A program made the position numbers and the translations under genes. Shown here in pieces: positions 3,105 to 59,106 of a stretch of 64,000 nt of DNA. Below the pieces are notes generated by a model. That model was not told the origin of the DNA. It was given only the letters and a program-made list of their open reading frames with translations, and made no database searches. The DNA is from Polaromonas sp. YR568. Its GTDB lineage: Bacteria; Pseudomonadota; Gammaproteobacteria; Burkholderiales; Burkholderiaceae_C. The stretch is from the NCBI RefSeq assembly GCF_900116715.1, contig NZ_FPBM01000001.1:746784-810783 (forward strand), in the 5' to 3' direction. How positions within the stretch are numbered: the first letter of the stretch is position 1; every line of letters begins with the position of its first letter.

Positions 3105-3244
3105 TATCTTTCTGCGTAATGGCTCGCAATCGCAGAGTCGCCTATTTATTGGTAAAGGTCGCTGTATCGTTTTTTTTGGCTTTCGCCGGTTCTTTCCGCG
3201 ACACGCACGCCAGATGCCTAACGGAACGGGTTGTCAGACCAATC

Positions 3245-4021
3245 CTATGTCGCGTAAATATCGGAGCGTTTAAGAACTTTCCTCAAAAATCCCAACACTC
3301 CTTGCAATGGATCCGGTCCGAGACAAAAACCGTGTTGAATTTGTACATCTGTTCTCTTTGCCAGCAAAGCGCCATCTCCAATCTTTCGAATCTCGACATT
3401 TATCCGCGTCGAGGCCCATCGATAGTCGGGCAAAGATCCTAAGACATCGGACCGGTCATACGTCACGTCAACCACAAGTGCGTCCGTCCCCATCTCAACT
3501 TCAGGTGTACCCGCAAGGAATGAGAGTTCTGGTGTAAAGCGCGATCTGTCCAAAACCAGGTGTTTCTGAACTTCCAGCAACGACAACTCACCGTGAATCC
3601 GGACAAAAACCTTCTCCCGGCCGCTTGCATATGAATGAATCGTCTCGCCCCCCTGTTTGAGGCACTCCGCTTGCATGTTTGCAAGGACAGTTTTGTAAGC
3701 CGCCTCCCTTTGCTCTTTTTCATATTGAGCTTTATTCGAGAAATAGCCGACTCCAGCCATAAAAAGAACCAGGAAGATGGCCATCACTTTGACACCAAAT
3801 ATCTTGTAGATGATGAACAACGCCAAGACTACGAGAATCTGGCCTATTACGAGAATCCATCTGACAAGATCGCCAAGATAGGCGTCGCCATAACTGCCTT
3901 GGCCTTGGGCTATTGCAAGCGGCGAAAAAGCCATAAGGAAGAGGCCAACAAGACACGTCAGACTCGCGGCAATGAAGGCCCTACGGCATTCAAATGTGCT
4001 CCCGGAAAAATTCTTGCCCAC
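3245..4021 (-). CDS. Membrane protein of unknown function in an AT-richer islet
   Basis: I do not recognise the family. The product is about 258 residues. It has an N-terminal signal-like hydrophobic segment ending in AIAQ, then two closely spaced membrane segments (LVRWILVIGQILVVLALF and VKVMAIFLVLFMAGVGYF). A basic/acidic linker and a soluble C-terminal domain of about 150 residues with Cys pairs follow. The start chosen is GTG at 4021, five bases after AGGGAG; a TTG at 4108 is an alternative. Base composition is clearly lower in GC than the neighbours (one 60-bp line counted by hand gives 43 percent), which points to recent transfer. Nothing around it suggests a function. Confidence 0.6.
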   Translation of the reverse strand: MGKNFSGSTFECRRAFIAASLTCLVGLFLMAFSPLAIAQGQGSYGDAYLGDLVRWILVIGQILVVLALFIIYKIFGVKVMAIFLVLFMAGVGYFSNKAQYEKEQREAAYKTVLANMQAECLKQGGETIHSYASGREKVFVRIHGELSLLEVQKHLVLDRSRFTPELSFLAGTPEVEMGTDALVVDVTYDRSDVLGSLPDYRWASTRINVEIRKIGDGALLAKRTDVQIQHGFCLGPDPLQGVLGFLRKVLKRSDIYAT

Positions 4022-5562: not shown

Positions 5563-6219
5563 ATGCACACACCTGACAACACCTTTCGCCGCCACCTCTT
5601 GCTGGGTGGCCTCGCCTCTGTAGCGTTGGTAGCTGCGGGCTGCTCAAAGTCAGCCAAACCCAAAGGCAAGACGCTGCCCAAAGAGGCCACGCTGCTGTGC
5701 CTGGGCGATTCGCTGACATTTGGTTATGGCGCTTCGGCGGGTGCGGGCTACCCGCAGCAGTTGCAGCAGCTCACAGGCTATGTGACGCAAAACGCCGGGA
5801 TCAACGGCGACACCTCGGAAGGGGCGCTGGCGCGGCTGCCAGCGCTGTTGCAGAACAACACGCCAGGCTTGGTGCTGGTGTCGATTGGCGGCAATGACTT
5901 CTTGCGAAGCTTGCCGCTGGACGGCACACGCGCCGCACTCAAAAACATTGTGCAAACCGCCGCTGCCGGCGCACAGGTGGTGCTGATCGCGCAGCCCAAA
6001 CCCGTCTTTCTGGCCGCGGCCACCGGCTCATTGAACGACCACGAGGTGTATGCCGATGTGGCGAAGGAAACCGGCACGCCGCTGTTTGCCGGCGGCTGGT
6101 CGTATGTGCTGTCGCGGGCCGAGCTGCGGTCGGACCAGATTCATGCCAATGATGCGGGGTACAAGGTGTTTGCTGAACGGCTGGCGGAATGGTTACGGGA
6201 TAACAAGTTTTTGGGCTGA
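5563..6219 (+). CDS. SGNH/GDSL hydrolase (arylesterase, TesA-like), lipoprotein
   Basis: The 218-residue enzyme has all SGNH blocks: GDSL with Ser50, the Gly of block II (GYVTQNAGINGDTS), GGND with Asn111, and DQIH with Asp191 and His194. It resembles TesA/EstA arylesterase-thioesterases. The N-terminus is a signal peptide with RR and a lipobox (VAAGC, Cys27), so it is probably anchored in the envelope. Typical substrates are short acyl esters or thioesters. The stop codon lies 12 bases before palindromic element copy A. Confidence 0.9.
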   Translation: MHTPDNTFRRHLLLGGLASVALVAAGCSKSAKPKGKTLPKEATLLCLGDSLTFGYGASAGAGYPQQLQQLTGYVTQNAGINGDTSEGALARLPALLQNNTPGLVLVSIGGNDFLRSLPLDGTRAALKNIVQTAAAGAQVVLIAQPKPVFLAAATGSLNDHEVYADVAKETGTPLFAGGWSYVLSRAELRSDQIHANDAGYKVFAERLAEWLRDNKFLG

Positions 6220-6231
6220 GTGGGGGGTGGG

Positions 6232-6884
6232 CCGGGTCTTGCTCCGGCTTGGGCGCTCGTGCCTTTTGCTGAGGCTGCTGGCCGGGTCTCGCCCCGGCGG
6301 GCGAGGCACTTTTCTTTGCTTCGCCAAAGAAAAGTACCCAAAAGAAAGGCGACCCTACTGTCTGCGTCCCTCCGCTTCGCTACGGGCAACCTGCGGTGCT
6401 CGGTTCAGGCGGGGTCTCGCTCGAACTCGCTTCGCTCAGACAATCGCGATCCCTGATCCGCCTGAACCTGCGCTCCTCGGCGCAGACAGAAGGGGTGGAG
6501 ACAGGAATACCAATACGAAATACCAAACAGCCGAAGACAGAAACCCGAATACAAGAAGAAACAAGGACTCGCCATGGCGAGTCCTTGTTGGTATTTGTCT
6601 TTGGTATTTAGTCCCCGCACCCGATTGCCCCTTCTGTCTGCGCCGAGGAGCGCAGGGCCAGACGGATCAGGGCAAAAACTTGTTTGAGCCGAAGGCGAGT
6701 TGTTTTTGACCCCGTCTGGACCGAGCACCGCAGGTTGCCCCGGAGCGAAGCGCAGGGGACGCAGACAGTAGGGTCGCCTTTTCTTTGCTTACTTTCTTTT
6801 GGCGAAGCAAAAGAAAGTGAGTTGCCGCCGGGCAACCCCCGGCCAGCAAGCTTCAGAGGAGGGCGCGCCGTCGGAGCAAGAACC
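6232..6884. repeat. Long palindromic repeat element, copy A
   Basis: About 650 bp of non-coding DNA form one large imperfect inverted repeat, closely matched by copy B at 57918-58577. The ends are small hairpins: GCCGG (6231-6235) pairs with CCGGC (6244-6248), and a mirror GGAGCAAGA motif sits at 6873-6881. The outer arms carry the block GGCGACCCTACTGTCTGCGT (about 6350) and its reverse complement (about 6755). Each half contains its own stem: 6402-6412 with 6458-6468 (11 bp) and 6658-6665 with 6712-6719 (8 bp). A perfect 28-bp palindrome (6561-6588) marks the centre, flanked by TACCAA on the left and TTGGTA on the right. It fills the gap between two convergent genes almost exactly. All frames through it are interrupted and none resembles a known family. 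Confidence 0.9.
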
Positions 6885-6889
6885 GACGA

Positions 6890-7858
6890 CTAGCCTTCGT
6901 CAGGCTCAGAACCCTTAGCCGGCCTAGGAATCTTCTTGAACTTGATCAACCGGTTAGTCTCAATCTTGTCCTTCTTCACCTGCCGCTCGGCATCCAGCAA
7001 CCGGCCGGCAGCCAGCCATTCGGCGTACTCTTCAGGCGTTTCCAGCGTCACGCGGCCCAGCGTGGCGGAGCGGAATTCGTAGATCACGATCTCGGCGGCT
7101 TTTTGCAGGTTGACGCGGCCCTTGGTGAGCACCGCGCCGCGTTTGCGGCCTATCTCTTCGAGCATTTGTTCGTCGGTGATGCCGGGCGTGACCTCGACTT
7201 TGTAGCGGGCCTCCAGCAGGCCGGGGTAATTCTTGATGAGGTAGTCGAGCAGCTCGAGCGCCACTTCTTCTTCGTTAAAGGCATTGCGGCCTATGGCGCC
7301 GCTGGCGGCCAGGTTGTAGCCGCTTTTGGCGACGATGATGCGCGGCCACAGCATGCCGGGGGTGTCCCACAGATAAAAGCCGTCGGCCAGCACCAGGCGC
7401 TGCTCGACCTTGGTGATGCCGGCTTCGTCGCCTGTTTTGGTGGCGCGCTTGCCGGTCAAGGTGTTGATGAGGGTGGACTTGCCGACGTTGGGAATGCCGC
7501 AGATCAGCACGCGCATGGGTTTGACCATGGTGCCGCGTGTGGGCGCCAGCGCATGGCAGGCGTCGATGAGGCGGCGCGCGGGTGTGGTCTCGCTGGCGTC
7601 GAGCTCGATGGCGCGGGTGTTGGGCAGGCTGTTGTAGTGCTCCAGCCAGAGCGGCGTGCGGGTGGCGTCGGCCAGGTCGCGCTTGTTGAGCACCTTGAGG
7701 GCGGGCTTGCCGCTGGTGAGTTCGGCCAGCATGGGGTTGGCGCTGGAGCCGGGCAGGCGCGCGTCCAGCAGCTCAATGACGACATCAATTTCTTTGATGC
7801 GCTCGCTGATGGCTTTTTTGGTCAGGTGCATGTGACCGGGAAACCACTGGATGGCCAT
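6890..7858 (-). CDS. rbgA: Ribosome biogenesis GTPase YlqF/RbgA
   Basis: The 322-residue protein is a circularly permuted GTPase. The G4 motif NKRD (residues 58-61) comes before G1 GIPNVGKST (121-129) and G3 DTPG (165-168), and the N-terminus has the family signature WFPGHM. RbgA/YlqF proteins act in late maturation of the large ribosomal subunit. The ATG at 7858 fits this N-terminal signature; the frame is open 57 bp further upstream but adds only a low-complexity proline-rich stretch. The stop codon is five bases beyond copy A of the palindromic element. The gene is divergent from the two-component system at 8082. Confidence 0.93.
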   Translation of the reverse strand: MAIQWFPGHMHLTKKAISERIKEIDVVIELLDARLPGSSANPMLAELTSGKPALKVLNKRDLADATRTPLWLEHYNSLPNTRAIELDASETTPARRLIDACHALAPTRGTMVKPMRVLICGIPNVGKSTLINTLTGKRATKTGDEAGITKVEQRLVLADGFYLWDTPGMLWPRIIVAKSGYNLAASGAIGRNAFNEEEVALELLDYLIKNYPGLLEARYKVEVTPGITDEQMLEEIGRKRGAVLTKGRVNLQKAAEIVIYEFRSATLGRVTLETPEEYAEWLAAGRLLDAERQVKKDKIETNRLIKFKKIPRPAKGSEPDEG

Positions 7859-47024: not shown

Positions 47025-47046
47025 GCGTGTGAGAGATAACTCCAGG

Positions 47047-47074
47047 GGGGCCGGGGTCCGGCTCCGCCGGCCCC
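47047..47074. repeat. GC-rich hairpin downstream of the RND operon
   Basis: GGGGCCGG (47047-47054) and CCGGCCCC (47067-47074) are a perfect 8-bp stem around a 12-base loop. It may be a second terminator part or a small repeat; only one copy is seen in this window. Confidence 0.5.
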
Positions 47075-47135
47075 AAGGCGCCCGTCTCCTGCAAGGGGAA
47101 AGGAGGCTACACGCAGTGAGCCTCAAGAGGGGTAT

Positions 47136-57732: not shown

Positions 57733-57912
57733 ATGCACAGGACTGCCAAACGCACCCCCAAGGCCCCGGTCACCGACAACGGCCAGCCCCGCTATGGCCC
57801 GCCCGAAGAGGCCGGGGATGATGATGATGCGCTGGAGTTGCCGGTGGAGCCGGATGAAGGGATGCCTTTGATTCCGGATGATGATGAACGGGTAGTGAAT
57901 GTTCCGTCTTGA
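57733..57912 (+). CDS. Small acidic protein of unknown function
   Basis: The 59-residue product starts MHRTAKRTPKAPVTDNGQPRYGPPEE, then has a poly-Asp stretch and ends ELPVEPDEGMPLIPDDDERVVNVPS. A strong AAGGAG precedes the ATG at 57733. It looks disordered. The stop codon lies five bases before palindromic element copy B. I do not recognise a function. Confidence 0.65.
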   Translation: MHRTAKRTPKAPVTDNGQPRYGPPEEAGDDDDALELPVEPDEGMPLIPDDDERVVNVPS

Positions 57913-57917
57913 TTTGG

Positions 57918-58577
57918 CTGGGTCTTGTTCCAGCCTGCGCGCTTGTGCCCTTTGCTGAGGACAGCTGGCCGGGGGTTGCCCGGCGGCAACTCACTTTTCT
58001 TTGCTTCGCCAAAGAAAAGTAAGCAAAAGAAAGGCGACCCTACTGTCTGCGTCCCTTCGCTTCGCTACGGGCAACCTGCGGTGCTCGGTTCAGGCGGGGT
58101 CTCGCTCGAACTCGCCTTCGGCTCAGACAGTCGCGATCCCTGATCCGCCTGAACCTGCGCTCCTCGGCGCAGACAGAAGGGGTGGGGAGATGGAATACCA
58201 ATACCGAATACCAAACAGCCGAAGAAAGAAACCTGAATACCTGAAGAAACAAGGACTCGCCACGGCGAGTCCTTGTTGGTATTTGTCTTTGGTATTTGGT
58301 CCCCGTGCCCGATTGCCCCTTCTGTCTGCGCCGAGGAGCACAGGGCCAGACGGATAAGGGCAAAAACTTGTTTGAGCGAAGCGAGTTGTTTTTGACCCCG
58401 TCTGGACCGAGCACCGCAGGTTGCCCGCAGCGAAGCGGAGGGACGCAGACAGTAGGGTCGCCTTTTCTTTGGTGACTTTCTTTTGGCGAAGCAAAAGAAA
58501 GTTACTTGCCGCCGGGCAACCCCCGGCCAACAGCCTCAGCAAAGGGCAAGAGCGCGAGAGACCGGAGCAAGACCCGG
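57918..58577. repeat. Long palindromic repeat element, copy B
   Basis: This is the second copy of the element at 6232-6884, in the same orientation and aligned along its whole length. The ends are hairpins: GGCTGG (57916-57921) with CCAGCC (57930-57935), and a mirror CCGG...CCGG motif around GGAGCAAGACC (58562-58577). A left stem-tip GCCTTCGGC (58114-58122), a right stem-tip GCGAAGC (58376-58382) and a central near-perfect 28-bp palindrome (58249-58276) are present. It occupies the gap between a + gene ending at 57912 and a - gene ending at 58585, leaving only 5 and 7 bp. Confidence 0.9.
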
Positions 58578-58584
58578 CAAAAAA

Positions 58585-59106
58585 CTAGTCCACTACCCTC
58601 TTAAGCCGAATCTCTTCAAGCTTGGCACTACCAAACGCCACAGTCTTAAGCGAAGGCATCTCCCGCTTGAACCCCGCAGCATGCTCATAAAACCGCAGCG
58701 CACGTTCATTGCGCAACAACACCCACAACGTGACCTGCGTGCAGCCTTCTTCCTTCAGGCCTTCGCGCGCGCCATCCCACAGGGCCAGCCCAGCGCCCTT
58801 GCCCCAGTGCGCCGGCGCCACATACATGGCCCAGACTTCGCCCACGGTGGACTTGGTACCCGCATCACGCGAACGGTCAAAACCGACAAAACCCACGATC
58901 TCGTCGCCGTCGGTGGCTACCAGCAGTTGCGGTTCGCTGAACTCGATGGCTTCGCGCCAGTAGGCCAGGCGTTTTTCGACGGAGATCTTGTTCAGGTAGT
59001 CCTCGGGCATGAGGTCTTTGTAGGCGGCTTGCCAGGTGGCGACATGAATCTCTGCGATGGCTTTGGCATCGCGGGGCGTGGCGTGGCGGACGGAATAGCT
59101 GGACAT
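58585..59106 (-). CDS. GNAT family N-acetyltransferase
   Basis: The 173-residue protein has the GNAT core: SVRHATPRDAKAIAEIHVATWQAAY at the N-terminus and the acetyl-CoA loop in VAPAHWGKGAGLALWDGAREGL. The substrate is unknown. ATG 59106 is the start nearest to homology; no strong ribosome site is seen. It is convergent with element copy B and divergent from the scramblase-like gene. Confidence 0.88.
   Translation of the reverse strand: MSSYSVRHATPRDAKAIAEIHVATWQAAYKDLMPEDYLNKISVEKRLAYWREAIEFSEPQLLVATDGDEIVGFVGFDRSRDAGTKSTVGEVWAMYVAPAHWGKGAGLALWDGAREGLKEEGCTQVTLWVLLRNERALRFYEHAAGFKREMPSLKTVAFGSAKLEEIRLKRVVD

Follow-up and report, generated by a model that had tools for sequence, protein, structure and literature searches.

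The window, a stretch of 64,000 nucleotides from the genome of Polaromonas sp. YR568, contains two copies of a long imperfect palindrome, copy A at about 6231-6886 and copy B at 57913-58584, which align in five collinear blocks of 94-100% identity. Each copy has a + strand gene on its left and a - strand gene on its right, i.e., its flanking genes are convergent. At copy A, the TGA stop codon of the left gene occupies 6217-6219 and the end hairpin starts at 6231; on the right, the end hairpin reaches 6886 and the stop codon of the - strand gene is at 6890-6892. At copy B, the TGA of the left + strand orf occupies 57910-57912 and the end hairpin starts at 57916; the right end hairpin reaches about 58578 and the - strand gene stops at 58585-58587. 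An earlier note on this DNA had placed both copies between convergent genes, as the located stop codons and hairpins bear out, and its spacings of 12 and 5 bp for copy A and 5 and 7 bp for copy B were essentially right: the distances from stop codon to end hairpin were measured as 12 and 3 bp for copy A and 5 and 7 bp for copy B, and overall the ends of the element lie 3-12 bp from the stops. The features of the two sites are as follows.

5563..6219, + strand: left flanking gene of copy A
6231..6886, no strand: copy A of the element
6890..7831, - strand: right flanking gene of copy A, presumably a GTPase of YlqF type
57734..57912, + strand: left flanking small gene of copy B, 58 codons, frame kept in relatives
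57913..58584, no strand: copy B, a full-length palindromic element between two convergent stops, with arms 57966-58101/58394-58529 that are 90% complementary
57916..57935, + strand: left end hairpin of copy B (GGCTGGGTCTTGTTCCAGCC)
57968..57984, + strand: G-rich hairpin of the left half-unit of copy B; the variants GTTGCC/GGCAAC, GTCGCC/GGCGAC and GTGGCC/GGCCAG retain pairing
57994..58034, + strand: left triplex-type motif of copy B (pyrimidine tract, purine tract, mirror purine tract), recognized by tract pairing and mirror symmetry
58038..58182, + strand: branched stem of the left half-unit of copy B, outer pairing 58038-58051/58168-58182 and inner pairing 58087-58097/58145-58155, predicted with covariation
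58248..58277, no strand: central hairpin of copy B (AACAAGGACTCGCC..GGCGAGTCCTTGTT) with T-rich flanks, found by pattern and matched by a terminator scan
58278..58561, - strand: right half-unit of copy B, inverted
58461..58501, - strand: right triplex-type motif of copy B
58562..58578, - strand: right end hairpin of copy B
58585..59106, - strand: right flanking gene of copy B, which we take to be acetyltransferase-like

The 58-codon gene on the left of copy B fell below the first threshold of the gene caller and was accepted because its frame, read by eye, is retained in the genomes of G048 and G041; its product is an acidic small protein. No gene was called inside copy B, where open frames of up to 139 aa are present. 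Folded as single-stranded DNA, copy B reaches -291 kcal/mol compared to a mean of -121 kcal/mol for 20 shuffled sequences (z -23.9).

Full copies of the element consist of two inverted half-units of ~250 bp around a central hairpin; half copies and deletion derivatives also exist. Each half-unit comprises, in order, the end hairpin, a G-rich hairpin, a pyrimidine tract, a complementary purine tract, a third tract, again of purines and in mirror symmetry with the second, and the branched stem. The end hairpins are inverted at both ends of copies A and B and so constitute terminal inverted repeats, of which some copies lack one. An exact match to their consensus CCGGGTCTTGCTCCGG is found at 12 places in the YR568 genome, 11 of them at located copies and the other at C2:18997, and the idea of a separate genome-wide motif behind stop codons was rejected. 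The pattern of the central hairpin occurs 25 times in the YR568 genome (23 exact, two with two mismatches), and the central hairpin of G048 matches its counterpart in Polaromonas sp. JS666 (L107). Between half-units and central hairpin there are short, variable tandem repeats (GGGTAC, TTGGCTG and GGTATT types) that differ among copies, for example in L059 after position 3181, near the centre of L072, and at 58190-58310 of the window.

In 52 YR568 arms found by pattern, the first and second tracts pair in every arm and the second and third are mirror-symmetric in 51. Two alleles, CTTTTCTTTG/CAAAGAAAAG/AAAAGAAAG and CTTTCTTTTG/CAAAAGAAAG/AAAGAAAAG, account for 51 of the 52 arms, and both retain the pairing as well as the mirror symmetry. 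A fixed pairing of alleles between the arms of one copy was rejected, for 15 YR568 copies include nine with unlike arms (4/3 or 3/4), five with like arms and one other. In loci L070-L156, 84 of 94 arms are mirror-symmetric, among them alleles of other lengths, and 10 are not; in loci L157-L193 all 37 arms are. Most of these loci were picked with a pattern in which the third tract is fixed and the other tracts are free. A pyrimidine tract, a purine tract and a reverse-Hoogsteen purine tract joined by short loops on one strand make up the sequence layout of a class II intrastrand triplex, and the half-unit motif has this layout; the triplex itself is predicted. The 52-bp triplex-type hairpin part alone matches at least 36 to 40 places in each of seven Paraburkholderia replicons (NZ_CP012748.1 and six others), which would represent a larger related family.

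Alignment A1 comprises 37 diverse half-units: of 192 arms 102 were non-redundant, 45 of these remained after filtering by length and motif, and 37 of the 45 were used. In this alignment, 29 of the 51 predicted pairs have double changes that preserve pairing. The pairs with more than one Watson-Crick type contain 968 Watson-Crick, 36 G.U and 13 A.C cells, 23 of the G.U cells being in one column pair. Because G.U and A.C cells are rare, and about equally so outside two column pairs, there is no clear sign that the RNA of either strand folds. Correction of quasi-palindromes at replication could also give such pairing, but not the mirror symmetry. If the account of the element given below is right, the covariation among dozens of copies in each genome, with several alleles in different genera, makes it a natural system for tracing a three-strand pairing rule.

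A DNA search of the YR568 genome gave 94 matches, merged by eye into at least 40 distinct copies; the best 40 of 69 candidates were scored, so more copies exist, and short-motif matches are found near four further contig ends. Flanking genes were predicted with our own Markov gene finder, independently of the published annotation, and their orientations were tallied by eye. Both flanking genes are readable for 26 copies, of which 15 are between convergent genes, 8 between tandem genes and 3 between divergent genes, compared to 26 convergent, 94 tandem and 39 divergent among 159 element-free gene pairs of the same DNA (Fisher p=2e-5 for the convergent share; p=4e-4 against an assumed 25%). The convergent enrichment in the YR568 genome is real and statistically sound, and the earlier opinion that the arrangement was unlikely by chance has been upheld. 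Fourteen other copies are cut by contig ends, and 12 of these face the 3′ end of a gene, one faces a 5′ end and one is ambiguous; two of the fourteen are probably two sides of one copy, as C17 and C20 match both sides of one site in G048. No located copy in YR568 lies wholly within a called gene, and called genes overlap the edge of the element by up to about 90 bp at four loci (L035, L067, L051, L059). A motif search in YR568 and related loci located 44 element ends, a few of them representing the inner G-rich hairpin; 33 of the ends point at the 3′ end of a gene, 27 of them from a distance of 0-16 bp from the stop codon. Convergent gaps without the element are short, with a median of 23 bp. 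Fourteen of the 44 contig ends of the YR568 assembly are inside the element (L045, L048, L050, L051, L052, L061-L069), making it a main cause of assembly breaks in this genome.

The close relative G048 has 5 convergent, 6 tandem and 1 divergent among 12 copies with both flanks that were picked from the matches listed; not counted among these 12 are a convergent locus of G041 and one tandem and one divergent locus of G042. A pattern scan of named genomes produced at least 117 stretches; titles were shown for 80, and loci L157-L193 were used without names. The titled loci among the matches listed include some from Polaromonas, Variovorax, Acidovorax, Thiobacillus, Dechloromonas, Silvimonas, Gallionella, Methylobacter and Aggregatibacter. 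Among the matches listed from other genomes, 51 sites with both flanks comprise 14 convergent, 34 tandem and 3 divergent, compared to 60 convergent, 196 tandem and 70 divergent among 326 background gene pairs; the convergent excess is not significant (p=0.07) but the divergent deficit is (p=0.002). These 51 were retained from 105 scanned sites by excluding 7 that overlap a called gene, 45 with only one flank within 1.5 kb (28 facing a 3′ end and 17 a 5′ end) and 2 without a flank. By title, nine Polaromonas loci are 1 convergent, 6 tandem and 2 divergent; the other titled loci are 9 convergent, 18 tandem and 1 divergent; and the loci without a shown title are 4 convergent, 10 tandem and 0 divergent. 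Where published annotation was available, a copy in Variovorax paradoxus (CP063167.1) is convergent and one in Comamonas (NZ_CP083452.1) is tandem. The convergent share is higher in YR568 than in the other genomes (15/26 versus 14/51, p=0.013), and the bias may be particular to the YR568 genome. Convergent placement was therefore rejected as a defining property of the element, being found at 14 of 51 sites in other genomes and at one of nine Polaromonas loci. The earlier note, which had proposed a role where transcripts converge, named a majority of copies between co-directional or divergent genes or inside genes as the observation that would speak against it: the proposal is favoured by the enrichment in YR568, where 11 of 26 copies are non-convergent, but not elsewhere, where 34 tandem and 3 divergent sites out of 51 form such a majority, and a role at converging transcripts thus does not hold for the element in general.

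A second, unrelated intergenic repeat of ~90 bp, located at 47042-47133 of the window, has 20 matches in YR568 and many in G048 and G041, and may be the published BRE. Its 17 intergenic copies are 6 convergent, 11 tandem and 0 divergent, and 3 more are inside called genes. The convergent share of this control repeat (6/17) is not significantly different from that of the element (15/26, p=0.22), indicating that a bias toward 3′ ends is partly general to intergenic repeats.

The history of the two sites in the window was examined in relatives. At site B, G041 has kept both genes around an empty 22-bp gap, and in G048 the gap measures 172 bp and contains a shortened copy, with end hairpins directly adjoining the two stop codons (frames read by eye). 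No target-site duplication is visible at this one empty site, where the sequences have diverged. At site A, the left gene is followed in G048 by a 210-bp derivative and a different right neighbour; in G041 the right gene is preserved with a full copy behind it, and the left neighbour is a different one. The G048 counterparts of both copies have lost the middle and kept the ends. Searches for orthologues of the right genes of copy A and of L034 found different neighbours in relatives and no clean empty site. Eight YR568 sites with both flanks readable have a counterpart in G048; five share both flanks (site A being counted among them, with genes in between) and three share one flank within 2.5 kb. 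A change of partners at element sites is suggestive only. Median identity is 86.6% among 17 YR568 copies and 84.7% among 11 G048 copies, but 79.0% between the two genomes, and in a comparison of five shared sites, three with both flanks in common and two with one, the best-scoring copy was never the counterpart; the pair L040/L271 is non-discriminating, with 88.5% identity to the counterpart and 87-89% to YR568 copies. The similarity within genomes is due either to concerted evolution or to repeated insertion at the same places.

The best account of the element, which is put forward tentatively, is that of a fold-back DNA repeat of triplex type which persists at the 3′ ends of genes and recombines with its copies. 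Two inverted structured half-units around a central hairpin, with a triplex-type motif in each half, would constitute a non-coding repeat that acts at the DNA level, its copies probably folding when they are single-stranded. Recombination between copies would homogenise them, deletion across the palindrome would remove the middle of some, and copies would sometimes end up beside new gene partners. The element would be tolerated, and hence retained, where no promoter is parted from its gene, which is to say at 3′ ends and chiefly in short convergent gaps, where both of its ends would be within a few bp of stop codons. In the YR568 clade, the T-flanked central hairpin may also end transcripts from both sides.

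This account draws on the predicted structure with its covariation, the 3′-end bias, the similarity within genomes, the deletion derivatives and the one empty site. Tolerance is supported by the convergent excess in YR568, the divergent deficit elsewhere, the similar bias of the unrelated repeat (6/17), the shortness of convergent gaps (median 23 bp) and the 22-bp empty gap in G041. Action at the DNA level is supported by covariation without a clear RNA signature and by the mirror rule (51 of 52 YR568 arms), and PMC4666352 states that RNA does not form purine-motif triplexes. Recombination is supported by the higher identity among YR568 copies than between YR568 and G048 copies, the deletion derivatives in G048, and the sharing of one flank at three of eight sites. 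The lack of matches in phage records (none of 50,697) and their rarity in plasmid records (15 of 72,556) also favour the account. Several observations weigh against the same account: tolerance alone does not predict a higher convergent share in YR568 than elsewhere (p=0.013), the single convergent site among nine Polaromonas loci means that the effect may be peculiar to YR568, the lack of located copies wholly inside genes points to targeting or to strong selection, the signs of concerted evolution could come from repeated insertion at favoured sites, and the overlap of an Rfam RNA family with a diverged half-unit speaks for RNA.

It is unlikely that the element is instead a bidirectional terminator or insulator under selection, in which the central hairpin would end both transcripts, the arms would block antisense read-through and selection would keep the copies at junctions. 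Convergent enrichment in YR568 would fit such a function, as would the hairpins with T or A runs in which the half copies L049 and L054 end. Counting a tail as T-rich when at least 4 of its 8 letters are T, central hairpins with such tails on both sides make up 9 of 14 in YR568 and 5 of 9 in loci of G048 and G042, but only 1 of 22 in other loci. The terminator scan of copy B gives a match, but matches are no more numerous than in shuffled sequences; the G048 counterparts of copies A and B dispensed with the middle and not with the ends; and a study quoted by PMC4666352 found PIT elements inactive as promoters or terminators. The termination role suggested at the outset is thus weakly favoured in the YR568 clade (9/14) and disfavoured elsewhere (1/22): a two-way terminator is possible in that clade, but unlikely as a common function.

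Targeted insertion, in which a non-autonomous mobile element would be placed in trans by an enzyme at terminators or 3′ ends, is quite unlikely. The 33 of 44 ends that face a 3′ end, 27 of them within 0-16 bp of the stop codon, the lack of located copies wholly inside genes and the empty site in G041 are in its favour, but short gaps alone would place the ends near stop codons, no target duplication is visible at site B, and no gene was called within copy B (open frames up to 139 aa). A Y1 transposase domain was found in seven of eight genomes searched (10 matches; 39.3 bits in YR568), but no arm of the element is present within about 1.5 kb on either side of eight Y1 loci, and an association with the transposases examined was rejected. 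The element matched none of 50,697 phage records, by which a phage origin was rejected, and it is rare on plasmids (15 of 72,556 records). Insertion directed to 3′ ends, which the earlier note had also proposed, is possible, with no target duplication seen at the one empty site. Facing arms are 1.46 kb apart in L090 (2951-4452) and 1.56 kb apart in L098 (1543-3147), both in other genomes, and the stretch between them could be an autonomous or inserted unit.

An RNA-level element, the half-unit being a structured 3′ untranslated region or small RNA, is improbable. Strong covariation and location at 3′ ends would suit it, and according to PMC4666352 the pyrimidine-motif layout, which the complementary strand has, is able to form in RNA. 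Among 15 diverse loci, Rfam identified two families at gathering score, a tRNA and TwoAYGGAY (RF01731); the latter, at 3350-3517 of L171 on the outward strand, overlaps a half-unit (arm 3508-3549) with 45.2 bits against a gathering score of 43, and L162 has a partial match below gathering. Against an RNA-level element are the rarity and near equality of G.U and A.C cells outside two column pairs, the absence of TwoAYGGAY from YR568 and six other genomes (14 control genomes being silent too) and from six other diverse loci, and the lack of any Rfam match in copy B except a weak one below threshold. TwoAYGGAY is rated 'probably RNA' in PMC2864571, and binding of CsrA to it is proposed in PMC4333381. 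Judging by the L171 overlap, a distant branch of the element family, or the branched stem, may have been described already as a candidate RNA of unknown function. Finally, chance or a gene-calling artefact, which might be suspected from the use of our own gene calls and a tally of convergence by eye, is very improbable given 26 copies with p=2e-5 and the conservation of the reading frames at copy B in relatives.

A broader proposition is doubtful: that this is a widespread structured DNA family of beta- and gammaproteobacteria, named only in its fringe (as TwoAYGGAY), in which the stem sequence turned over but a three-strand motif of triplex type and a branched, covarying fold persisted, which evolves in concert within genomes, and which in some genomes marks convergent junctions, possibly as a joint for recombination or the absorption of supercoils. 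If correct, it would connect an intergenic DNA repeat with a candidate structured RNA whose function is unknown, and help to separate function at convergent junctions from survival there, which are often confused for intergenic repeats. No earlier description of the whole element was found in the open-access literature.

Of the known repeats that the element resembles, the MITE-like EFAR acts as a two-way terminator. EFAR, YPAL and NEMIS, listed as MITEs in PMC3733652, are likewise non-coding, have inverted ends and adjoin coding sequences, but the element exceeds the 70-300 bp given there, and neither a target duplication nor a cognate transposase was seen. REP and BIME sequences, in the same paper, are intergenic palindromes located on the downstream side of coding regions and mostly between genes that are unidirectional or convergent; they differ in being 20-40 bp long with GTAG or CGTC tags and often accompanied by a transposase gene, whereas the element is about 650 bp, has no constant GTAG or CGTC tag at the listed ends (by eye), and has no arm beside the transposase genes examined. 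BRE (PMC3110155) is usually intergenic and is reported to be most numerous in Polaromonas sp. JS666, but is about 90 bp and tandemly repeated, a comparison made by description only. TwoAYGGAY overlaps the branched stem of the diverged half-unit in L171 (2 bits above gathering) and partly that in L162, but has no match in YR568 or the closer relatives searched (the control genomes are also silent), and its two AYGGAY loops were not seen in the YR568 half-unit.

PIT elements (BoxC, TM-ECO) were compared on the basis of PMC4666352. The element does not fit the TM-ECO/BoxC consensus CCCTCNCCC..GGGNGAGGG..GGGNGAGGG when compared by eye; TM-ECO is G/C-rich and 37 nt long, whereas the tracts of the element are A/G and T/C and belong to a half-unit of ~250 bp with more covarying stems, and TM-ECO is reported to be more often upstream of genes, whereas the element prefers 3′ ends in YR568. 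In the same paper, the class II intrastrand triplex is described for bacterial DNA, and a G/C-rich triplex relative is linked to local rearrangement, with deletions at palindromic sites. Like the element, PIT elements have pyrimidine, purine and mirror purine tracts on one strand in the class II layout, are intergenic and sometimes in inverted pairs, occur in many proteobacteria, and are associated with rearrangement and palindromic deletions.
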